NCBI GenBank assembly: GCA_021808525.1
Contig: JAKBBK010000022.1
Coordinates: forward strand, 1-41,577
Direction of reading: 5' to 3'
DNA: 41,577 nt
DNA from: Pseudomonadota bacterium
GTDB lineage: Bacteria > Pseudomonadota > Gammaproteobacteria > Burkholderiales > Burkholderiaceae_C
This document shows positions 1-12,494 of this stretch, piece after piece. The notes under the pieces are model-generated. The model saw nothing but the letters and a program-made list of their open reading frames with translations. It searched no databases and was not told the origin of the DNA. A program made the position numbers and the translations under genes. Within the stretch, counting starts at the first letter, position 1. Every line of letters begins with the position of its first letter.

Positions 1-407
1 TGGACGAGGCGCTGGAGCGTGCGAAGGCGTACTCCGAAGCGGGCGCCGATGCGATCCTGATCCACTCCAAGCGGCAAGACGCCGAGGAGGTGATCGAGTT
101 CGCCGCCCGCTGGCGCGGCGAGCTCCCCCTCTTGGCAGTCCCGACAACCTACTACCGTACGTCTGCCAAGGTTCTGCAGCAGGCGGGACTCGCCGGAATC
201 ATCTGGGCCAACCACAGCATTCGCTCCGCGATGCGAGCCATGCAGCAGACCTGCGCCGAAATCAAAGCCAACGACTCGATCGAACCTGTCGAGACCAAGG
301 TGGCGGCGATGTCAGAGATCTTCGAACTTCTCCGCTACTCGGATCTCGAGCGCGACGAGCGCAACTATCTGCCGGGAGCTATTCGAGCGCAGTTGGAGGC
401 CGAATGA
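1..407 (+). CDS. pepM: Phosphoenolpyruvate mutase, C-terminal part
   Basis: The gene enters from the left edge and is read from base 3, so only the last 134 or so residues are visible. The family (isocitrate lyase/PEP mutase TIM barrels) converts phosphoenolpyruvate to phosphonopyruvate, the C-P bond-forming step of nearly all phosphonate synthesis. Visible family features are the barrel segment GADAILIHSK, the VPTTYY strand and IIWANHSIRSAM near the end. The diagnostic EDKxxxxNS motif would lie outside the window, so PEP mutase versus a phosphonopyruvate hydrolase-type relative is decided partly by the decarboxylase that follows. The stop codon overlaps an ATG (404-406) in the ATGA arrangement that is repeated in this operon, which suggests translational coupling. 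Base composition here is less GC-extreme than in the genes after 7.5 kb. Confidence 0.85.
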   Translation, partial: DEALERAKAYSEAGADAILIHSKRQDAEEVIEFAARWRGELPLLAVPTTYYRTSAKVLQQAGLAGIIWANHSIRSAMRAMQQTCAEIKANDSIEPVETKVAAMSEIFELLRYSDLERDERNYLPGAIRAQLEAE

Positions 408-466
408 CAGCGTGCGTGAATGGGGTCGACGCCGGGGCCTTTGTAGATGCCTAGCTGGCACGGGAT
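404..466 (+). other. Probable original 5' end of the decarboxylase gene, cut by an in-frame TAG
   Basis: Reading from the ATG at 404 in the frame of the downstream decarboxylase gives MTACVNGVDAGAFVDA, then TAG at 452-454, then LARDV running straight into the conserved TYFAGVPDTLL of the enzyme. The stretch AGAFVDA-x-LARDVTYFAGVPD matches what the N-terminal helix of this family looks like. The ATG also forms the same ATGA overlap with the upstream gene that is seen at other junctions of the operon. The single TAG is therefore best explained as a nonsense change (for example from TTG or CAG) or a sequence error. Confidence 0.7.
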
Positions 467-1579
467 GTGACATATTTCGCAGGAGTCCCGGATACCCTGC
501 TGCGCCAATTCTGTAGTGCCCTCCGAACAAGATTGCCGGCGCACCGGCACTTGATCGCCTGTAACGAAGGCGCCGCGGTAGGGACGGCGGTGGGCCACTA
601 TCTTGCCACCGGAACCCTGGGTATGGTCTATATGCAGAACTCCGGGCTGGGCAATGCCATGAACCCGCTGCTGTCGCTGGCGGCACGCCAGGTGTGTGGC
701 GTGCCGATGCTGCTGCTCGTAGGCTGGCGCGGCGAACCCGAAGGTGCCGCGGACGAACCGCAGCACCAGCGACAAGGTGCCGTGACGCTTGCGCTGCTGC
801 AGGCTTGTGGTCTGCGCCATGCGCTCCTCGAGCATGAAGCCTCGCGCTGCTGGGCTCAACTTGACGAAGCCGTGCAGCAGGCGAAGTACCTAGGCGAGCC
901 GGTAGCCCTGCTGGTGCGCCGTGGCCTGTTCTCCTCCAGCTTCGGCGACGGGTGCGTCCGAGCGGCTGGGCTTGCAGGCGGACTGGCGCGCGAACAGGCG
1001 CTCGAGGCATGCATCGATGCCCTGCCCTCTGATGCAGTGACCGTCACCACCACTGGAATGGCTGCACGCGAGCTATTCGAAATCCGCGCGCGCCGCGGCA
1101 TGGACCACGCGCTGGACTTTCTCGCCGTGGGTGGCATGGGGCACGCTGCGGCGATTGCGTTCGCGATCGCCCAGGCGCGCCCCCGGCGCTGCGTCGTCTG
1201 CCTGGACGGTGACGGCGCGATGCTCATGCATATGGGCGCACTGAGCCACTGCGCCCAGGCAGCGAACTTGCTGCACGTGGTGATCAACAATGGTGCCCAC
1301 GATTCCGTCGGCGGCCAGCCGACCGCCGCCGCGGCGCTGGAGCTGGGACGCTTCGCGTCGGCGGCCGGCTACGCCCACGTGGCTTCCGTAGGGGAAGCCG
1401 CCGAGCTACGGGGGGTGCTTGGCGAGCTACTGCAGCGCCGCGGCAGTAGCTTCATCGAGGTGCGTTGCGTCAAAGGCAGCCGAGCCGACCTGGGAAGGCC
1501 GCGGATTCCACCGCGAATCAACAAGGAACGATTCATGTCTGCTATCGGCGCCGCTGGGGTTCATCAGGAGGCGCCATGA
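467..1579 (+). CDS. ppd: Phosphonopyruvate decarboxylase, N-terminus interrupted
   Basis: This TPP-dependent enzyme decarboxylates phosphonopyruvate to phosphonoacetaldehyde and so pulls the unfavourable PEP mutase equilibrium forward. The open frame runs from a GTG at 467 for 370 residues. Recognisable parts are FAGVPDTLLRQFC at the N-terminus, the glutamate in ACNEGAAVGTAVG, the MQNSGLGNAMNPLLSL segment, and the TPP/metal motif starting at DGDGAMLMHMGAL and ending in NNGAHDSVGG, typical of the family. About 20 N-terminal residues are separated from the rest by the TAG at 452-454. The GTG has no convincing ribosome-binding site, since the nearest purines lie almost against the codon. Translation may thus be weak or absent unless the TAG is an error or is suppressed. 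The stop overlaps the next ATG (1576) as ATGA. Confidence 0.88.
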   Translation: MTYFAGVPDTLLRQFCSALRTRLPAHRHLIACNEGAAVGTAVGHYLATGTLGMVYMQNSGLGNAMNPLLSLAARQVCGVPMLLLVGWRGEPEGAADEPQHQRQGAVTLALLQACGLRHALLEHEASRCWAQLDEAVQQAKYLGEPVALLVRRGLFSSSFGDGCVRAAGLAGGLAREQALEACIDALPSDAVTVTTTGMAARELFEIRARRGMDHALDFLAVGGMGHAAAIAFAIAQARPRRCVVCLDGDGAMLMHMGALSHCAQAANLLHVVINNGAHDSVGGQPTAAAALELGRFASAAGYAHVASVGEAAELRGVLGELLQRRGSSFIEVRCVKGSRADLGRPRIPPRINKERFMSAIGAAGVHQEAP

Positions 1580-2658
1580 AAGTCGCAATCGAATCCGCCG
1601 CGGGCGAGCGCTCCACGTTCGAGGTCAAGGTGATCGCGTCGAATGCTCGCTTGGCCGGCGCCGCGCTCGCAGGCGAACCGGTGTTCCGTAACGATCTGCG
1701 GATCGTGGAGGGAATGGTCGTACTCGGGCGTGTGCTCGGTCACCCTGGCTCGATTGCCGAGATCGAGAATGTGCACGCGCGCGATGTACGCTTGTACCCG
1801 GGCGACTGCTTCATCGGCGTGGTTGCTAACCGGCATTCGAGCACCTCGGAATATGGTGAGGTTCCGGTGGGTCTCGAGCTCGAGCGTGCGCCGGTTCTGG
1901 ACTTGCTGGCGCGCGGCGGAATTGTCGGCCGCGGCGCAATGGTCGGTGCGCCGCCGTTCACCAAGGTGGAACTTCTGGGTGCGCTCAGCCGAGAGGGGCG
2001 CGCGCAGATACTTAGCGAACTCAGCGAGGTCCCCGTGGTGACGCCCAGCCGCATAGCCCCGGTATTGCTGGTCGGAGGTACTGCGGCCGAAGTTGGAAAG
2101 ACCACCACATGCGCCGGACTGATCCGTGCCTTCAAGCGCCGCGGCTTGCAGGTCGGCGCCACCAAGCTCAGCGGCACCGGGAGGATGCGCGACATCGTTG
2201 CGATGCGCGAGGCGGGCGCCGACTTCTGCATGGACTTCCCCGACGCAGGCCTTGCGTCGACCTACACCGAGCACGAAGCGGTGCTGCAGGTGGCGCAACT
2301 GATGCTCGCAAGGTTGACGTCCCACGGCTGTGACATCCTGGTGGCTGAGCTCGGCGGGGACATCATTGAGGCCAACAACCCAGCGCTGCTCGACGCTGGA
2401 TTTGTTCGCGAAGCTACGCTTGGTATCGTGCACGTGGCTGCGGACGTGATCGGTCTGATTGGTTCGATCGAGATTTACCGCAGTTGGGGGCTCGCCGTGC
2501 CGATTTACGCAACTTTGCCCCGCGGACGCAACCGGGCTGGAACACTACGGCGCCTGCGCGAACGCCATCTCGATGCGATCGACCCTCGCTCCGATTCCGA
2601 CTGCGACGCGCTGGCGGAGCGCTTGCTCGTCGGCACCAACGTCACCGCAGCGGCGTGA
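1576..2658 (+). CDS. P-loop NTPase of the BioD/CobQ/DUF1611-like type, function unassigned
   Basis: The product is 360 residues. An N-terminal domain of about 160 residues, with no motif I recognise, is followed by a P-loop domain. Walker A is GGTAAEVGKTTT (about residues 167-178). A second acidic motif, DILVAELGGDIIEANNP (about 253-269), resembles the glycine-rich acidic motif of dethiobiotin synthetase and cobyrinate amidase relatives. ATKLSGTGRMRD after the P-loop resembles DUF1611 proteins. Proteins of this fold often activate a carboxylate or carbamate as an acyl phosphate. In this operon it is the only visible candidate for joining phosphonoacetate or a carbamate to an amine, but that is inference. 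A longer reading from an upstream ATG (1465) would sit inside the decarboxylase gene, so the ATG at 1576, in an ATGA overlap, is chosen. It ends in a GTGA overlap with the next gene. Confidence 0.7.
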   Translation: MKVAIESAAGERSTFEVKVIASNARLAGAALAGEPVFRNDLRIVEGMVVLGRVLGHPGSIAEIENVHARDVRLYPGDCFIGVVANRHSSTSEYGEVPVGLELERAPVLDLLARGGIVGRGAMVGAPPFTKVELLGALSREGRAQILSELSEVPVVTPSRIAPVLLVGGTAAEVGKTTTCAGLIRAFKRRGLQVGATKLSGTGRMRDIVAMREAGADFCMDFPDAGLASTYTEHEAVLQVAQLMLARLTSHGCDILVAELGGDIIEANNPALLDAGFVREATLGIVHVAADVIGLIGSIEIYRSWGLAVPIYATLPRGRNRAGTLRRLRERHLDAIDPRSDSDCDALAERLLVGTNVTAAA

Positions 2659-3389
2659 GCGTGGGATGGACTTGGTTGCTGAGCGTGAGCCGGGAGCCGC
2701 TCTCCCTGAGCGCGGTGTTCGCCTCGTCCGTCGCATCGTCCGCGCTGGGGGTGGGCAGCGCGGCGCTGCTGCCGCTATTCGTGTGGGAGTTTGACGGCAA
2801 GCCAGGCGTCGCGGTGTTCACAGTCTATTTATTGTTCCAGAACATCAGCAAGCTGGCCCTGTTCTGGCGTGAGATCGACTGGTACGTCGGGCGGAGGCTG
2901 TTGCTGTGGGCTGCTCCAGCCGCAGCGGCTGGGTCACTGCTGCTGCTGATGTTGCCAGAGGCGTGGTTCAGGCAGATTCTCGGGGTATGCATCCTGCTTC
3001 TCATCACGCTACCTGCGCTGCCGTTACCTGATTTGCCGTCGACGGTGCAGCTTCCTGTTTTCGGGTTGTTCTACGGGCTGTGCTCGGGGGCGCTGGGCAG
3101 CGGCAATGTGGTCAAGGGGCCGCTGTTGTTGTCGGCAGGTCTGGTCAAGGAGCGCTACATCGCAACCTACGCATTGAGCTCCCTGGCGATGAACCTACCC
3201 AAGATCCTGATCTACGGAGTCGGGGGCCTCACGCCATCGCACCTGCTGGGCCGTGGCGCGTTGCTTCTGGTGGTTTCGCTCGACGGATCCTGGGCCGGAA
3301 AACGGCTCCTGGTGGCGATTCCGGCGCGCTGGTTTGCACGCGTCGTCACAGGCGTATGTGTGCTCAGCGCCTTGCTGCTTCTCGTGTGA
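2655..3389 (+). CDS. TauE/SafE-family integral membrane protein, possible phosphonate exporter
   Basis: A 244-residue, strongly hydrophobic protein with about seven to eight membrane segments. The repeated layout of a conserved glycine-rich stretch (FGLFYGLCSGALGSGNVVKGPLLL) is typical of the TauE/SafE (DUF81) family, which moves sulfite, sulfoacetate and related organic anions. The GTG at 2655 is chosen because it overlaps the previous stop (GTGA) and gives a normal length; an upstream ATG (2484) would lie deep inside the P-loop gene. Family substrates are small C2 sulfonates or sulfite, so export of an isosteric C2 phosphonate such as phosphonoacetate, or of the final product, is a reasonable inference from the neighbourhood. 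Confidence 0.7.
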   Translation: MSVGWTWLLSVSREPLSLSAVFASSVASSALGVGSAALLPLFVWEFDGKPGVAVFTVYLLFQNISKLALFWREIDWYVGRRLLLWAAPAAAAGSLLLLMLPEAWFRQILGVCILLLITLPALPLPDLPSTVQLPVFGLFYGLCSGALGSGNVVKGPLLLSAGLVKERYIATYALSSLAMNLPKILIYGVGGLTPSHLLGRGALLLVVSLDGSWAGKRLLVAIPARWFARVVTGVCVLSALLLLV

Positions 3390-3407
3390 TCTCATGGAGT
3401 GACTTAA

Positions 3408-4817
3408 ATGGACTTTCCGACGGGTTTGCAGGCCAGTCCGACGCTGACCGTGCGCAACCCTTTCAATGGCGAACTCATCGCGGAGCTCGCGCAATTCGGG
3501 CCTGACTTGGTGCGCGCGGCGATCACGCGCGCAGCCCGCTACAAGGCACCGCTCAGCCGGGCCGAGCGCTCACGCATTCTGGGAACGACCTCGAATGCGC
3601 TCGCGGCCCAGGCCCCGACATTCGCGCGGCTGATCAGCAGCGAGTCGGGTCTGGGATTGCGGGACACTCTGGCTGAGGTCGATCGCACCGTAGAGCTCTT
3701 GCACTTGGCGGCTGCCGAGGTGCTCCGCGACGAGGCGCAGTGCTTCGCTGGCGATGCGCGCGTCGGCGGCGCACGCAGCCGCACGGTAAGCCAGCGCGAG
3801 CCGCGGTTGGGGGTGATTGCCGCGATCACTCCCTTTAACCACCCACTGCACCAAGTTGCGCACAAGGCGGTTCCGGCCATTGCGACCAACAACCGCATGG
3901 TCCTGCGCCCATCAAGCAGAGTACCGCTGTCGGCGCTGCGTTTCGCGGCGCTGCTTCGCGAGGCCGGACTGCCGGAGCCAATGTTCCAAGTGCTGGTCGG
4001 TGATGCCAGGGCTATCGCGGGTGTTCTGCTGGACAGCCCCGAAGTTGAAATGCTCAGTTTTACCGGCGGGGTCGAGGCCGGGCATGAGCTGGCCAGGGCC
4101 GCCGGCTATCGCCGCGTCGTTTTGGAGCTCGGCGGCAACGACGCCCTGATCGTGATGGACGACGCCTGCCCCGAAGCTTCGGCGAAGCTGGCGGCCCAAG
4201 GCGCCTATGCCAACTCGGGTCAGCGCTGCACGGCGGTTAAGCGCATCCTGGTGCAGCGAGCGCTGCACCAGGTCTTTGTCGAGGCGCTGGTCGAGGCTAG
4301 CCGCGAGTGGAGCCACGGCGACCCGTTTGACCTGAGCAACCGCATCGGCTGCGTGATCGATGCCGATGCCGCCGGTGCGTTGCGGGCTAGGGTCGACGCC
4401 GCGGCTGCGCGTGGGGGCCGGGTTCTTCTCGGCAACCAGAGCCATGGCGCGGCGTACGCGCCGACCGTGGTCGACGATGTTCGACCCGATTTCGACCTGG
4501 TGCGCGAGGAGACCTTCGGCCCTGTGGCCCCGGTGATCACATTCGACACAGTGGATGAGGCAATCGCGATCGCCAACGCCAGCGACTACGGTCTGTCCTC
4601 GGGCTTGTGCACCAATCGGCTCGACGTGATCGACAGGATGTTTCATTCGCTTGAAGTCGGCAACCTCAACGTCTGGGACGTTCCCGGTGCCCGCTCGGCG
4701 CTCGCTCCCTTCGGCGGCATCAAGAATTCCGGTCTTGGCGACAAGGAGGGGTTGCTGGAGTCGATGCGCGCTTGTACCTATGTCAAGACGCTGACATTAC
4801 CGTGGGGGAAGCCTTGA
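3408..4817 (+). CDS. phnY: Phosphonoacetaldehyde dehydrogenase-like aldehyde dehydrogenase
   Basis: A 469-residue NAD(P)-dependent aldehyde dehydrogenase. Catalytic features are the TPFNHP motif with Asn144, LELGGNDALIV with Glu240 and NSGQRCTAVKR with nucleophile Cys274. The end has the standard EETFGPV and PFGGIKNSGLG motifs. NHPLHQVAHK and the overall pattern fit the PhnY-type phosphonoacetaldehyde dehydrogenases known from aminoethylphosphonate breakdown, which make phosphonoacetate. The position right after a PEP mutase/decarboxylase pair makes phosphonoacetaldehyde the obvious substrate. A GGAG at 3396-3399 lies 8 bases before the ATG. One oddity is RPSSR where most family members have KPSE (about residues 167-171), a cofactor-contacting loop. 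The next gene starts 2 bases after its stop. Confidence 0.82.
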   Translation: MDFPTGLQASPTLTVRNPFNGELIAELAQFGPDLVRAAITRAARYKAPLSRAERSRILGTTSNALAAQAPTFARLISSESGLGLRDTLAEVDRTVELLHLAAAEVLRDEAQCFAGDARVGGARSRTVSQREPRLGVIAAITPFNHPLHQVAHKAVPAIATNNRMVLRPSSRVPLSALRFAALLREAGLPEPMFQVLVGDARAIAGVLLDSPEVEMLSFTGGVEAGHELARAAGYRRVVLELGGNDALIVMDDACPEASAKLAAQGAYANSGQRCTAVKRILVQRALHQVFVEALVEASREWSHGDPFDLSNRIGCVIDADAAGALRARVDAAAARGGRVLLGNQSHGAAYAPTVVDDVRPDFDLVREETFGPVAPVITFDTVDEAIAIANASDYGLSSGLCTNRLDVIDRMFHSLEVGNLNVWDVPGARSALAPFGGIKNSGLGDKEGLLESMRACTYVKTLTLPWGKP

Positions 4818-4819
4818 AC

Positions 4820-5857
4820 ATGACCCACCTGCTTTCGGTCGATGACCTGGAGCGTGACCAAGTCGAAGCCCTGTTGGCCACGGCCCGCGCCGCAGAACCC
4901 ATCGCACGACGACACAAGGTATGCCGGGTGCTGGAAGGCGCTGTGCTGGGCAACCTGTTCTTCGAGGCCAGCACGCGGACACGGATGAGCTTCGCGGCTG
5001 CGTTCTGCCGCCTGGGCGGAGCGGTGTGCGACACCACAGGGTTCACCTTCTCCTCGATGGCCAAGGGGGAGTCCATCGCCGACACCAGCCGGGTGATCAG
5101 CGGCTACTGCGACGCCCTGGTGGTGCGCCACCCAGAGCAAGGCGCAGTGGCCGAATTCGCACGGGCAACGCATGTCCCGGTGGTCAACGGAGGAGACGGC
5201 CCTGGGGAACACCCGAGCCAGGCACTGCTCGATCTGTACACCATCGAGGATGAATTCGCGCGCCTGGGCAAGCATGTCGACGGCGCGCATATCGCGATGG
5301 TCGGCGACCTGCGTCATGGGCGTACGGTGCACTCACTGATCAAATTGCTTGCACAGCGATCGCGCATGCGTTTCACGTTGATCGCCCCGCCAGGACTGGA
5401 AATGCCTCCGGCGATCTGTGACAGGGTCGCTGCGAATGGCCATTTGATTGAAACGCGGCGCGTGCTGCGCCAGGGCTTGCATGACGCGGATCTCGTCTAC
5501 GCAACGCGCATCCAGCGCGAACGGATGTCAGGCGAGATGCGCGAGGGGTATACGCCGGATTTCCGCGTGGACCGTGCATTCGTCGACACCCATTGCGGAG
5601 TCTCGACCGTGCTCATGCACCCGCTGCCGCGCGATTCGTCGCCTGGCGCCAACGATCTCAGCACCGACCTTGACGGCGATCCGCGGCTGGCCATCTTTCG
5701 CCAGACAGACAACGGCGTCGCGGTACGCATGGCAATCTTTGCCACCCTGCTCGGAGTCGAGTCGCTGTTGCAGCGAGGGCTGCGCGATGCCCCCTGGCGA
5801 CATCCGCATCGCATCGGTCCCATGGACGCGGACTTCCACGCCCTAAGCCCTGGGTGA
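4820..5857 (+). CDS. pyrB: Aspartate carbamoyltransferase paralogue in a phosphonate operon
   Basis: A 345-residue ATCase catalytic chain. Carbamoyl-phosphate and aspartate site motifs are all present: FFEASTRTRMSF (Ser51-Thr-Arg-Thr-Arg), SSMAKGE (Ser79, Lys82), VVRHP (Arg103), GEHPSQALLDL (His131, Gln134), VGDLRHGRTVHS (Arg168), TRIQRER and HPLPR. HPLPR and HPSQ indicate ATCase and not ornithine carbamoyltransferase. It is about 30 residues longer than the E. coli chain, partly by a C-terminal tail. The ATG at 4820 is preceded by GGGGGAA at the right distance. No regulatory chain (PyrI), dihydroorotase or other pyrimidine gene is nearby. An intact active site in a phosphonate operon suggests a resistant target copy or a tailoring carbamoyltransferase, not housekeeping pyrimidine synthesis. 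I cannot see from sequence alone which residue would give resistance. Confidence 0.88.
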   Translation: MTHLLSVDDLERDQVEALLATARAAEPIARRHKVCRVLEGAVLGNLFFEASTRTRMSFAAAFCRLGGAVCDTTGFTFSSMAKGESIADTSRVISGYCDALVVRHPEQGAVAEFARATHVPVVNGGDGPGEHPSQALLDLYTIEDEFARLGKHVDGAHIAMVGDLRHGRTVHSLIKLLAQRSRMRFTLIAPPGLEMPPAICDRVAANGHLIETRRVLRQGLHDADLVYATRIQRERMSGEMREGYTPDFRVDRAFVDTHCGVSTVLMHPLPRDSSPGANDLSTDLDGDPRLAIFRQTDNGVAVRMAIFATLLGVESLLQRGLRDAPWRHPHRIGPMDADFHALSPG

Positions 5858-6597: not shown

Positions 6598-6900
6598 TCA
6601 GTGAGACGGGTTGGGCGGCCATTGCTGCGCGGCGTGAAGCACACGCAGCACAACGATCACCCGGTCATCGTCCTTCCCCTCGACGCGGTAGACGAGGACA
6701 TAGTTCGGCCGCACAACAGCCTCGCGTGTGCCTCGCACGCGACCCGGGCGGTAGAGCGTTGGATGCTGCCGAGCCTGCTCAGCTTTCACCTCGATCTCGT
6801 CGTCGATCTCGCAGGCCGCGATAGGGTTGTCTTGGGCGATGTGCTCGAGAATGGCTTCACGATCTTCCAGCGCCATGGGGCGCCATACAACTCGCGTCAC
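6598..6900 (-). CDS. parE: ParE/RelE-family type II toxin
   Basis: A 100-residue basic-acidic small protein. It has VVWRPMALEDREAILEHIAQDNPIAA at the N-terminus, HPTLYRPGRVRGTREAVV in the middle and YVLVYRVEGKDDDRVIVVLRVLHAAQQWP at the end, the classical ParE/RelE plasmid-stabilisation toxin layout. Family members act as gyrase poisons (ParE) or ribosome-dependent mRNA nucleases (RelE); the LREAVV-like and VLRVLHAAQQWP segments favour the ParE branch. It is downstream of, and overlaps by 4 bases, the antitoxin-like gene (6897-7343), giving the usual antitoxin-first order. The pair probably stabilises the accessory segment between the phosphonate operon and the 7.5 kb region. Confidence 0.88.
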   Translation of the reverse strand: MTRVVWRPMALEDREAILEHIAQDNPIAACEIDDEIEVKAEQARQHPTLYRPGRVRGTREAVVRPNYVLVYRVEGKDDDRVIVVLRVLHAAQQWPPNPSH

Positions 6901-9984: not shown

Positions 9985-10026
9985 TTGACAGATTTCCATG
10001 TTTCCACGATTATGGAAGCATGGAAA
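9985..10026 (+). promoter_or_regulatory. arsR promoter with overlapping ArsR operator
   Basis: TTGACA (9985-9990) and GATTAT (10008-10013) are 17 bases apart and place the transcription start at or next to the ATG at 10020, so the transcript is probably leaderless. A 14-base inverted repeat with one mismatch, TTTCCATGTTTCCA (9993-10006) against TGGAAGCATGGAAA (10013-10026), covers spacer, -10 and start codon. This is where an ArsR repressor would block RNA polymerase, and arsenite binding would release it. Confidence 0.75.
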
Positions 10027-10394
10027 CTTTGAACGCCGCCGAACTGCTGGCCGCCCTCGGGCACGAGTCGCGTCTTTCGATCTACCGTGCGCTGGTCGAG
10101 GCAGGGCCGCAGGGTCTGCATGCCGGGGCGATCGGCGAGCGCCTGGGGCTGCCGGCTCCGACCCTGTCCTTCCACCTGGCGCATCTCAGCCGCGTCGGGC
10201 TTGCGCGCAGGCGCCAGGAGGGCCGCTTCGTGATCTACGCGGCGGACTTCCCGGTGATGAACGACCTGCTCGGCTTCCTGACGGCCAACTGCTGCGGCGG
10301 CAACCCCTGCATGCCGAGCGCGCAGGCCGCGGGCGCCGGGCCGTCCCTGTCCGCTTGCTCCTGCGACTCGCCCCTGGAAGGAACACGACGATGA
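10020..10394 (+). CDS. arsR: ArsR-family arsenite-responsive repressor
   Basis: A 124-residue winged-helix repressor. The DNA-binding helix pair is AIGERLGLPAPTLSFHLAHLSRVGLA. The usual ELCVCDL metal site is absent. Instead a C-terminal cluster, NCCGGNPC (Cys91, Cys92, Cys97), supplies three thiols, as in the ArsR variants with C-terminal As(III) sites described from Acidithiobacillus ferrooxidans. A further CSC (113-115) follows. The ATG lies inside the operator and close to the predicted transcription start. The stop overlaps the arsC ATG as ATGA. It would autoregulate the whole arsR-arsC-acr3-arsI run. Confidence 0.93.
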   Translation: METLNAAELLAALGHESRLSIYRALVEAGPQGLHAGAIGERLGLPAPTLSFHLAHLSRVGLARRRQEGRFVIYAADFPVMNDLLGFLTANCCGGNPCMPSAQAAGAGPSLSACSCDSPLEGTRR

Positions 10395-10831
10395 ACCCTG
10401 GCATCCGCAAGGTGCTGGTGCTGTGCACCGGCAATTCCTGCCGCTCGCAGATGGCCGAGGCGCTGCTCAATCACGACCTCGCCGGCCTGGTGCACGCCCG
10501 TTCGGCCGGCATCAGCCCGCAGCCCAAGGTGGCCGACGGCGCGGTCGAGGCGCTGCGCCTGGCCGGGCTTCCCACCGAGGACCTGTACCCGAAGGATCTG
10601 GACACCCTGATCGACCAGCCCTTCGACCTGGTGGTCACCGTGTGCGACAACGCGCGCGAGGCCTGCCCGGTGTTCCCGCGCCCGGTGCCCGGCATCCACC
10701 TGCCCTTCCACGACCCCCACGGCGAGCCGCTGGAGAGTTTCCTGCGCGTGCGCGACGACATCCGCGCGCGCCTGGTGCCGGCGGTGCGCGAGGCGCTGGG
10801 CTTGCCGCTCGCGCGGGTGGAGTCCCGATGA
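10391..10831 (+). CDS. arsC: Arsenate reductase, thioredoxin-coupled LMW-phosphatase type
   Basis: A 146-residue cytoplasmic enzyme reducing arsenate to arsenite for export. The P-loop VLCTGNSCRS has nucleophile Cys12 and Arg18 in the CX5R arrangement. The relay cysteines are in VTVCDNAREACPVFP (Cys85 and Cys92), as in the thioredoxin-dependent ArsC of Gram-positive type and unlike the glutaredoxin-dependent E. coli plasmid enzyme. The dipeptide-rich FHDPHGEP loop contains the general-acid aspartate. It is coupled by 4-base overlaps to arsR before it and acr3 after it. Confidence 0.94.
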   Translation: MNPGIRKVLVLCTGNSCRSQMAEALLNHDLAGLVHARSAGISPQPKVADGAVEALRLAGLPTEDLYPKDLDTLIDQPFDLVVTVCDNAREACPVFPRPVPGIHLPFHDPHGEPLESFLRVRDDIRARLVPAVREALGLPLARVESR

Positions 10832-11907
10832 GCGCGCAATGCGAAGTGGTGGCGCGCAGGGCCGCCGGCGCGCCGATGAGCCTGTTCGAGCGCTGGCTCA
10901 CGCTGTGGGTGTTCCTGTGCATCGTCGCCGGCATCGTGCTGGGGCAGCTGCTGCCGGGCCCGTTCCAGTGGCTGGGCCGGCTGGAACTCGCGCAGGTCAA
11001 CCTTCCGGTGGGGCTGCTGATCTGGGTGATGATCATCCCCATGCTGATGAAGGTGGACTTCGGCGCCTTGCACGAGGTGCGCCGGCACGTGCGCGGCATC
11101 GGCGTCACCCTGGTGATCAACTGGCTGGTCAAGCCCTTCTCGATGGCCCTGCTGGGCTGGGTGTTCATCCGCCACCTGTTCGCGCCCTGGCTGCCGGCCG
11201 CGCAGATCGACAGCTACATCGCAGGTCTCATCCTGCTGGCCGCGGCGCCCTGCACGGCGATGGTGTTCGTGTGGAGCCGCCTGTCCGGTGGGGACCCGCT
11301 GTTCACGCTGTCGCAGGTGGCGCTGAACGACTCCATCATGGTCTTCGCCTTCGCGCCCATCGTGGCGCTGCTGCTGGGCATCTCGGCCATCCACGTGCCC
11401 TGGGCCACGCTGCTGTTCTCGGTGCTCATGTACATCGTGGTCCCGCTGGCGCTGGCGCAGGCCTGGCGCGCGCTGCTGCTGCGGCGAGGCCAGGCCGCCT
11501 TCGACGCGGCGGCAGCGCGCATCGGCCCCTGGTCGATGGCCGCTCTGCTGGCCACGCTGGTGCTGCTGTTCGCCTTCCAGGGACCGGCCATCGAGGCGCA
11601 GCCGCTGGTCATCGCGCTGCTGGCCGTTCCCATCCTGATCCAGGTGCTGTTCAACTCCGGCCTGGCCTATGTGCTGAACCGCGCGGTGGGCGAGCAGCAC
11701 GCCATCGCCTGCCCTTCGGCGCTGATCGGCGCCAGCAACTTTTTCGAGCTGGCGGTGGCCGCGGCCATCAGCCTGTTCGGCTTCCAGTCGGGAGCGGCGC
11801 TGGCCACCGTGGTCGGCGTGTTGATCGAGGTTCCGGTGATGCTGCTGGTGGTCCGCCTGGTGGGGGCCACGCGCGGCTGGTACGAACGAGGAGGACAGAC
11901 GGCATGA
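10828..11907 (+). CDS. acr3: ACR3-family arsenite efflux permease
   Basis: A 359-residue protein with about ten membrane helices. The conserved transport cysteine sits in LAAAPCTAMVFVWSRLSGGDPLFTL, and LSLFERWLTLWVF-like and FNSGLAYVLNR segments are typical of ACR3 (arsenical resistance-3, also annotated ArsB). It exports As(OH)3 using the proton gradient, completing the pathway begun by ArsC. The ATG at 10828 overlaps the arsC stop. A second in-frame ATG at 10876 begins at MSLFERW, where many homologues start, so the first 16 residues may not be conserved. The stop overlaps the arsI start. Confidence 0.95.
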   Translation: MSAQCEVVARRAAGAPMSLFERWLTLWVFLCIVAGIVLGQLLPGPFQWLGRLELAQVNLPVGLLIWVMIIPMLMKVDFGALHEVRRHVRGIGVTLVINWLVKPFSMALLGWVFIRHLFAPWLPAAQIDSYIAGLILLAAAPCTAMVFVWSRLSGGDPLFTLSQVALNDSIMVFAFAPIVALLLGISAIHVPWATLLFSVLMYIVVPLALAQAWRALLLRRGQAAFDAAAARIGPWSMAALLATLVLLFAFQGPAIEAQPLVIALLAVPILIQVLFNSGLAYVLNRAVGEQHAIACPSALIGASNFFELAVAAAISLFGFQSGAALATVVGVLIEVPVMLLVVRLVGATRGWYERGGQTA

Positions 11908-12494
11908 AACGCTTTCACGTGCACGCGCACGTCGACGATCTGGCGGCGAGCATCGCCTTCTACACCCGGCTGTTCGGCGCCGAGCCGACGCGGGTGGAGG
12001 CCGACTACGCGAAGTGGATGATCGAGGATCCGCGGCTGAATTTCGCGATTTCCACGCGCGGCGCCGGAACCGGCATCGACCACCTGGGCATCCAGGCCGA
12101 CACCGAACTCGAACTCGCCGAACTCAAGGAGCGGGCCGGCGCCGCGGATGCCGCGCTGCTCGACGAAGGCGCCACCACCTGCTGCTACGCGCGCAGTGAG
12201 AAGCACTGGGTCACCGACCCGCAAGGCATCGCCTGGGAGCATTACCGCACCCTGGGCGACATCCCGGTGTTTCGCGAGGCGGCTCAGGACACGCCCGCAG
12301 CGGCCTGCTGCACGCCCGCCGTCGAGGCCGAGGCCGGCGCCTGCTGCACCCCCGCCGCAGCCGCCTCGGTCGCCGCCTGCTGCACACCTGCCAAACCCTC
12401 GCAGGCCACGGCCGGCTGCTCGCCCGGCCAGGGTTCCCGCGGTGGATCCTGCTGCACGCCGGCAGCGCAGGCGCGCCCCGGCCGCTGCTGCTGA
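11904..12494 (+). CDS. arsI: ArsI/CadI-type C-As lyase with a repetitive cysteine-pair tail
   Basis: A 196-residue protein. Residues 1-125 are a vicinal-oxygen-chelate (glyoxalase-like) domain with FHVHAHVDDLAASIAFYTRLFG at the N-terminus. Candidate Fe(II) ligands are His5 or His7, His60 (GIDHLGIQ) and Glu112 (WEHYRT). The vicinal pair Cys93-Cys94 (ATTCCYARSEKHWVTDPQG) binds trivalent arsenic. ArsI cleaves the C-As bond of methylarsenite and trivalent aromatic arsenicals, giving arsenite for ACR3. Residues 126-196 form an unusual tail with Cys-Cys pairs every 12 residues, which the basic ArsI fold does not need. Start and stop place it last in the tightly overlapping ars group; sigZ begins 5 bases later. 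Confidence 0.9.
   Translation: MKRFHVHAHVDDLAASIAFYTRLFGAEPTRVEADYAKWMIEDPRLNFAISTRGAGTGIDHLGIQADTELELAELKERAGAADAALLDEGATTCCYARSEKHWVTDPQGIAWEHYRTLGDIPVFREAAQDTPAAACCTPAVEAEAGACCTPAAAASVAACCTPAKPSQATAGCSPGQGSRGGSCCTPAAQARPGRCC
12303..12491 (+). repeat. Six 36-base units encoding ACCTPA-type cysteine repeats in arsI
   Basis: Units start at 12303, 12339, 12375, 12411, 12447 and 12483, an exact 36-base period. Four units encode (A/S)CCTPA; the fourth is degenerate (GCSPG) and the last ends the protein as RCC. The cysteines fall at residues 135-136, 147-148, 159-160, 172, 183-184 and 195-196, eleven in all. The strict period shows growth by in-frame duplication. Confidence 0.9.

Follow-up and report, generated by a model that had tools for sequence, protein, structure and literature searches.

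We identified a six-gene phosphonate operon ending in a second aspartate carbamoyltransferase (ATCase) at the start of a contig from a bacterium of the Burkholderiaceae_C (JAKBBK010000022.1 of assembly GCA_021808525.1; the whole analysed stretch of 41,577 nucleotides is called the window below). Its likeliest product is a phosphonoacetyl amide acting as an ATCase inhibitor, the operon ATCase then serving as the immunity copy. We put the chances of this reading a little under even, and N-phosphonoacetyl-L-aspartate (PALA) is the simplest candidate product. The reading draws on the occurrence of the operon's P-loop gene in seven genomes of the genus that all lie within the ten carrying a second ATCase, on a unit that stays intact in differing flanks, and on the retention of an ordinary pyrB in every operon genome. 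In addition, it is suggested by the BioD-like half of the P-loop protein, the N-acyl-amino-acid settings of two of its distant relatives, a related cluster on a Priestia plasmid, the precedent of the flavophos cluster, and an ATCase that outlived the pathway in one line. An earlier note on this DNA, made from the sequence alone, had proposed a PALA-like pathway with ATCase immunity; the phosphonoacetate genes, the second copy and the linkage stand, and the resistant active site and the upstream ligase find no support.

According to the proposed mechanism, PepM and Ppd would convert phosphoenolpyruvate (PEP) to phosphonoacetaldehyde, from which the PhnY-like enzyme would form phosphonoacetate. 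These first three chemical steps, and the status of the ATCase as an extra copy, are supported by homology. The BioD-like P-loop protein would then couple phosphonoacetate, at the expense of ATP, to the amino group of L-aspartate in the simplest case, or to another one, yielding PALA or a close relative. TauE would export the product, which would block the ATCase of competitors, and the catalytically ordinary operon ATCase would protect the producer as an extra target or inhibitor sink. In this second half the ligase activity, the amine used, the export step, the target and the role in immunity are all inferred.

Gene content and conservation of the operon

Profile searches of the window proteins placed six phosphonate and ATCase genes on one strand within bases 3 to 5857 (Table 1), confirming the compact arrangement described earlier, with spacings of -4, -4, +18 and +2 bases from ppd through to the ATCase gene. 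The genes for phosphonoacetate chemistry are also present, as judged by homology. The window starts at base 1 of its contig (C143 of its genome), and pepM is therefore cut; its catalytic part lies to the left of base 1, and the cut falls before the PEP mutase motif EDK...NS. The remaining fragment scores above its next-best family (83.7 bits), and the other PEP_mutase-family matches in the window genome read as prpB and isocitrate lyase, apart from one weak below-cut-off match on contig C62. Over the fragment, identity to the operon relatives is 34-36%, versus 38-48% to proteins from Priestia, Arthrobacter and Streptomyces; the window pepM appears to represent a different PEP mutase lineage, not orthologous to the other operon copies. 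Three complete operon PepM relatives score 365.7-379.8 bits, above the PEP mutase cut-off, and contain EDK...NS. The driving step after PEP mutase is present as well, since Ppd exceeds its family cut-off despite an in-frame stop after its ATG. The PhnY-like protein misses the TIGR03250 cut-off, as do three relatives (616.2-630.2 bits); the next-best family for the window protein scores 352.3 bits and the best solved structure match is 4i3t (E 8e-108).

Table 1. Genes of the operon in the window and the related plasmid cluster of Priestia
Feature	Position	Strand	Evidence
pepM, PEP mutase C-terminal fragment, 134 codons	3..407	+	TIGR02320 139.3 bits, profile positions 168-282
ppd, phosphonopyruvate decarboxylase	404..1579 (open frame from GTG 467)	+	TIGR03297 422.6 bits for 467-1576, cut-off 312.5
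P-loop protein, BioD-like nucleotide-binding half plus N-terminal part of ~155 residues, proposed amide ligase	1576..2658	+	AAA_26 27.9 bits, CbiA 26.4 bits
TauE/SafE-type membrane protein, proposed exporter	2655..3389	+	PF01925 80.7 bits
PhnY-like phosphonoacetaldehyde dehydrogenase	3408..4817	+	TIGR03250 599 bits, below cut-off 635.65
Second ATCase, PRK11891/NF008853 type	4820..5857	+	NF008853 590.2 bits, cut-off 560
Priestia megaterium KF18 plasmid unnamed4 cluster (L202)	NZ_CP085446.1 78735-99667		P-loop homologue, 33-34% identity

We then compared 28 genomes of the genus, with assemblies 81-100% complete. Close P-loop relatives occur in seven (the window genome, G714, G715, G716, G719, G723 and G726) and a second ATCase in ten, all ten sequences of which were read. 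All seven P-loop genomes fall inside the ten, with the two genes separated by a few kilobases of one contig; the chance of this overlap is 1.0e-4 if the genes were distributed at random and relatedness is ignored. No second ATCase was found in the remaining 18 of the 28, and no genome among the 28 has a close P-loop relative without a second ATCase. Five of the 28 genomes, each one an operon genome, have a PEP mutase above the curated cut-off, and the cut copy of the window is a sixth; the seventh operon genome, G723, whose contig begins within the P-loop gene, yielded no PEP mutase above the cut-off. Linkage of the ATCase to the biosynthetic genes, whose absence from related genomes the earlier note had named as refuting its reading, is conserved in 7/7 operon genomes.

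The gene order is repeated in other genomes, where the proteins of the four middle genes are 47-59% identical. Three units lie whole on a single contig (L005, L192 and L196/L009), the G715 unit is divided over two contigs by a break inside ppd, and the G723 and window units are truncated by contig ends. By nucleotide comparison, only the pairs L005/L195, L193/L194, L004/window and L004/L196 have flanking DNA in common, which in the last pair is a phosphate-transporter gene following the ATCase. Because the flanks differ while the genes stay together, a six-gene unit with pepM first and ATCase last stands out. Moreover, dN/dS values of 0.14-0.45 in 15/15 gene comparisons between related pairs indicate purifying selection, and this, together with the recurring order, argues that the arrangement is more than chance. 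The earlier note had suggested looking for a ligase gene to the left of base 1; upstream of pepM in L005, L192, L195 and L196, inspection by eye revealed only genes with no resemblance to ligases, and pepM comes first there. The six genes, as far as these comparisons indicate, form a self-contained unit in which the P-loop protein is the sole ligase candidate. The linkage is real, conserved within one genus, and unusual.

Other genes were observed around these units. The phosphate transporter downstream of the ATCase is of the PHO4 type (L196 1671-2624, minus strand; L004 3770-4726, plus strand). Downstream of the operon, the window carries a ParE-type toxin gene (6598-6900, minus strand) and, at ~10000-11910 on the plus strand, genes recognised by eye as arsR-like, arsC-like and like an ACR3-type arsenite exporter.

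The second ATCase and its history

The window genome carries three carbamoyltransferase-family proteins: argF (contig C6), a pyrB next to pyrC (contig C109) and the operon copy. The second, ordinary pyrB whose existence had been in question is therefore present, and the operon ATCase is not the only one of its genome. An ordinary pyrB lies next to pyrC in 7/7 operon genomes, the other six being 90-95% identical to that of the window genome, and one was matched in 27/28 genomes of the genus, the exception being G713. By sequence, the operon ATCase is accordingly an extra copy in all seven operon genomes. It aligns from position 89 of the NF008853 profile onward, the N-terminal extension being absent, and two relatives score similarly (L192 583.9 bits; L193 555.3 bits, just below the cut-off of 560). 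It is very probably a genuine ATCase. Further carbamoyltransferases were also seen in two operon hosts: G719 has an ornithine-like one (L129 982-2142, minus strand; 39% identity to argF of the window genome) and no other argF match, and another is located at G726:C21:9380-9790.

Searching with the operon ATCase sequence, we fetched 80 loci, 74 of which hold more distant Burkholderiales copies (68-72% identity). In a tree of 29 ATCases, comprising the ten of the genus and 19 of those 74, the genus sequences group together as a fully supported clade. The deepest split within it separates the window and L004 from the other six operon copies together with L007 and L008; the grouping around L007 and L008 is weakly supported, and neither shows an operon remnant. 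Since operon copies stand on both sides of the split, one gain followed by later losses is the simplest reading. Three genomes hold the second ATCase without the pathway, having neither a PEP mutase over the cut-off nor a close P-loop relative. One of these loci, L004, is 94% identical to the window over ~1.7 kb that begin within the phnY end (window 4726), and the 582 bases upstream of the junction are unrelated. L004 thus retains a cut phnY tail, from which it follows that the ATCase outlived the pathway there; at least in the L004 line, the sequences indicate that the pathway was lost and the ATCase kept.

The P-loop protein and the Priestia cluster

BioD is an ATP-dependent ligase that builds a ureido ring. 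A profile of the nucleotide-binding half of the operon P-loop protein matches solved dethiobiotin synthetases (BioD) over ~140 positions (E 4.5e-5), and AAA_26 and CbiA are both narrowly over their cut-offs. A match to DUF1611 (PF07755) reaches 20 bits over 43 residues, below the gathering cut-off of 25. The curated BioD families gave no match for the window protein at E 0.001, and the Priestia homologue scores 26.2 bits against a BioD family cut-off of 83.3. The operon protein therefore has the P-loop domain in common with BioD and DUF1611 proteins, ATP-dependent bond formation being that of BioD, and differs from them in its extra N-terminal part and in falling below the curated cut-offs of both families. 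Literature on DUF1611 and DgcN yielded nothing useful.

We also fetched the surroundings of six more distant P-loop relatives. One of these (L206 6089-9234) adjoins genes for an argC-like semialdehyde dehydrogenase and an argB-like amino acid kinase, and another (L207) lies beside an M20 peptidase; such neighbours amount to an N-acyl-amino-acid setting. ATP-dependent amide formation on amino acids is thus a plausible activity for the P-loop protein, as far as homology and gene context can suggest. The L206 relative may itself act in N-acyl-amino-acid synthesis.

When the P-loop protein was searched against 72,556 plasmids, it returned seven records, and another plasmid search eight; by far the best match, and the only strong case in either, was from Priestia megaterium (E 5e-49; Table 1). 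The order there is ornithine carbamoyltransferase, ATP-grasp, PpdA, PpdB, P-loop protein, ATP-grasp, M20, LLM monooxygenase and PEP mutase, and IS6 transposase genes flank the cluster. Its PEP mutase contains EDK...NS and scores 318.3 bits, just below the cut-off of 319.55, and its carbamoyltransferase is below the ornithine family cut-offs (e.g. 278.7 versus 306). Like the genus operon, this cluster combines PepM, Ppd (as two subunits), a P-loop homologue and a carbamoyltransferase; unlike it, the cluster has an ornithine-type enzyme, two ATP-grasp ligases, M20 and LLM proteins, and no PhnY. The presence of the same four components in two differently built clusters from two phyla argues for a role of the carbamoyltransferase in the pathway or in its immunity. 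The plasmids held no close relative of the Priestia carbamoyltransferase, the next best being at 37.7%, and Arthrobacter and Streptomyces plasmid relatives of the Priestia PEP mutase have no annotated carbamoyltransferase within ~10 kb. The P-loop profile was also run on three overlapping samples, with 399 genomes from the order, 300 from that of G400 and 398 from the phylum, and the window genome and G400 alone matched strongly; these samples missed most genus members holding the gene, and so do not imply its absence elsewhere. Among phages there was no match, and in viral contigs no confirmed relative.

Taking both clusters together, a broader proposal is that PALA is a natural product here, that Priestia makes a sister compound directed against an ornithine-type carbamoyltransferase, and that one BioD-like ligase family forms phosphonoacetyl amino acids, accompanied in each cluster by a matching carbamoyltransferase as immunity; we regard this as doubtful. 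To our knowledge, PALA is known only as a designed transition-state analogue.

Evidence against the reading, alternatives and significance

Several observations weigh against an ATCase inhibitor with an immunity copy. Thirteen active-site positions are identical to E. coli in 84/84 PRK11891-type sequences (ten from the genus and 74 from other Burkholderiales), and second-shell positions such as 225, 235 and 239-240 are variable; the 13 are positions that contact carbamoyl phosphate, aspartate and PALA in E. coli PyrB. A PALA-resistant ATCase with an altered active site, as had been proposed by analogy with phaseolotoxin producers, was rejected on these grounds. With an unchanged active site, protection would come from dosage, an extra target or sequestration; PALA-resistant animal cells amplify the ATCase-bearing gene. 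Furthermore, the PRK11891-type ATCase is common in Burkholderiales, and 74 of the 80 fetched loci lack phosphonate genes within the DNA compared, the exceptions among those 74 being three dehydrogenase matches (31-37%) and one ppd-like match (37%, L079). Being so widespread, its mere presence is unremarkable. One Achromobacter and one Bordetella genome yielded no ATCase besides it, the other family member there being argF-like (70%). G713 (locus L007; 95% complete, no operon) likewise has the second ATCase and no ordinary pyrB that we could find, and the second ATCase may have taken over the housekeeping role there. The type can thus be a sole ATCase and be retained for plain pyrimidine synthesis, and G713 slightly lowers the odds both of the immunity reading and of natural PALA. 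Retention of the ATCase after loss of the pathway fits an immunity gene that is useful against producing neighbours; it also fits a simply useful enzyme, as G713 suggests.

Other points concern the pathway itself. In the window, ppd has a likely start at ATG 404 followed by an in-frame TAG at 452-454 (codon 17), which the earlier note had overlooked; a start at GTG 467 omits a first stretch present in four relatives, and ppd in L005, L006, L009 and L192 has no such stop. The stop may be a genuine lesion or an error of assembly, or the short start may be usable, and the window pathway may be decaying, like that of its sister L004. In G726 (L006/L195), phnY is gone except for a short tail. The similarity of the P-loop protein to BioD is weak: structures of the GTPase FtsY (E 1.1e-5) rank ahead of BioD (E 4.2e-5) among the matches of its full-length profile, and all seven P-loop members match MobB weakly. 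We know of no ligase activity in this P-loop group, and the other four of the six distant relatives have no adjacent argB/argC or M20 gene. The Priestia carbamoyltransferase deviates from the ornithine-enzyme substrate motifs, and none of the genes in its cluster is annotated as an aldehyde dehydrogenase. The LLM enzyme could replace PhnY there, since aldehydes are oxidised to acids by luciferase-type enzymes.

It is conceivable, but unlikely, that the ATCase is biosynthetic, with N-carbamoyl-L-aspartate or another carbamoylated intermediate being coupled or cyclised with phosphonoacetate by the P-loop enzyme. The Priestia parallel also suits this explanation, as a carbamoyltransferase lies beside the same P-loop family in both clusters; the altered motifs of the Priestia enzyme are as for a changed substrate, and BioD itself forms a ureido ring. 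Nevertheless, an operon ATCase with a housekeeping-like active site would only duplicate the product of pyrB, and the enzyme is kept in the three genomes without the pathway.

Scarcely different in probability, if a shade lower, is the view that the second ATCase is a bystander which gained an upstream phosphonate operon by chance and is co-transcribed with it, with no functional link. Its wide occurrence in Burkholderiales away from phosphonate genes, its role as sole ATCase found in Achromobacter, Bordetella and G713, and the three genus genomes that have it without the operon are all in keeping with this. What speaks for a functional link is that in 18/28 genus genomes no such ATCase was found and no close P-loop relative occurs without one, that the order is kept in different flanks and on both sides of the deepest split among the genus ATCases, and that a carbamoyltransferase appears again in the Priestia cluster.

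We consider it improbable that the product is free phosphonoacetate or a phosphonate of the cell surface, with the ATCase only relieving pyrimidine synthesis from side inhibition by phosphonoacetate: genes for the steps to phosphonoacetate are present and phosphonoacetate is a weak carbamoyl-phosphate analogue, but the six-gene unit has no head-group transferase and the conserved P-loop protein would be left unexplained. Least credible is a phosphonate breakdown module, for although PhnY is known from 2-aminoethylphosphonate breakdown, the three complete operon PepM proteins are above the PEP mutase cut-off with EDK...NS, and phosphonopyruvate decarboxylase draws PEP mutase towards synthesis; phosphonoacetate hydrolase had no match in the 28 genomes, where the search controls were equally silent and the result is uninformative.

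Known systems bear on the immunity reading in different ways. Phaseolotoxin with the resistant ornithine carbamoyltransferase ArgK resembles the operon in pairing an antimetabolite against a carbamoyltransferase with a second target copy in the cluster, and differs in its phosphorus-nitrogen chemistry, the lack of a PEP mutase and a second copy that is itself insensitive. In the flavophos (bsf) system of Burkholderia, a duplicated lumazine synthase is reported as target and self-immunity (PMC12871164). This system has a short PEP-mutase cluster, an extra primary-metabolism enzyme with its catalytic residues kept and a transporter, as here, and, unlike here, a phosphonomethylmalate route and lumazine synthase as target (PMC12871164). 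Several ordinary lumazine synthases, and even weakly active mutants, are reported to have conferred resistance (PMC12871164), and flavophos is a phosphonate cluster in which immunity through a copy of the target has a precedent. Phosphonoacetate-derived products have been reported from actinomycetes, and the clusters for O-phosphonoacetic acid serine and of Kitasatospora fiedleri likewise have PepM, Ppd and a PhnY-like dehydrogenase, with phosphonoacetate as a proposed intermediate; they are actinomycete clusters, unlike the genus operon, and the main text of that paper, as searched by term, contains no word starting with carbamoyl (PMC12723261). A 2026 phosphonate review, also searched by term, contains no word starting with carbamoyl, PALA or aspartate. 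Among the papers listed in searches of open-licence PubMed Central for phosphonoacetyl aspartate, or for a carbamoyltransferase, with phosphonate biosynthesis, none described such a cluster.

In conclusion, the six-gene unit is small enough for testing whole in E. coli. PALA was designed, and then entered cancer trials. If the immunity reading is true, nature would have invented this textbook bisubstrate inhibitor of ATCase, and phosphonate natural products would gain pyrimidine synthesis as a new target, along with an amide-forming enzyme family that is new to them.

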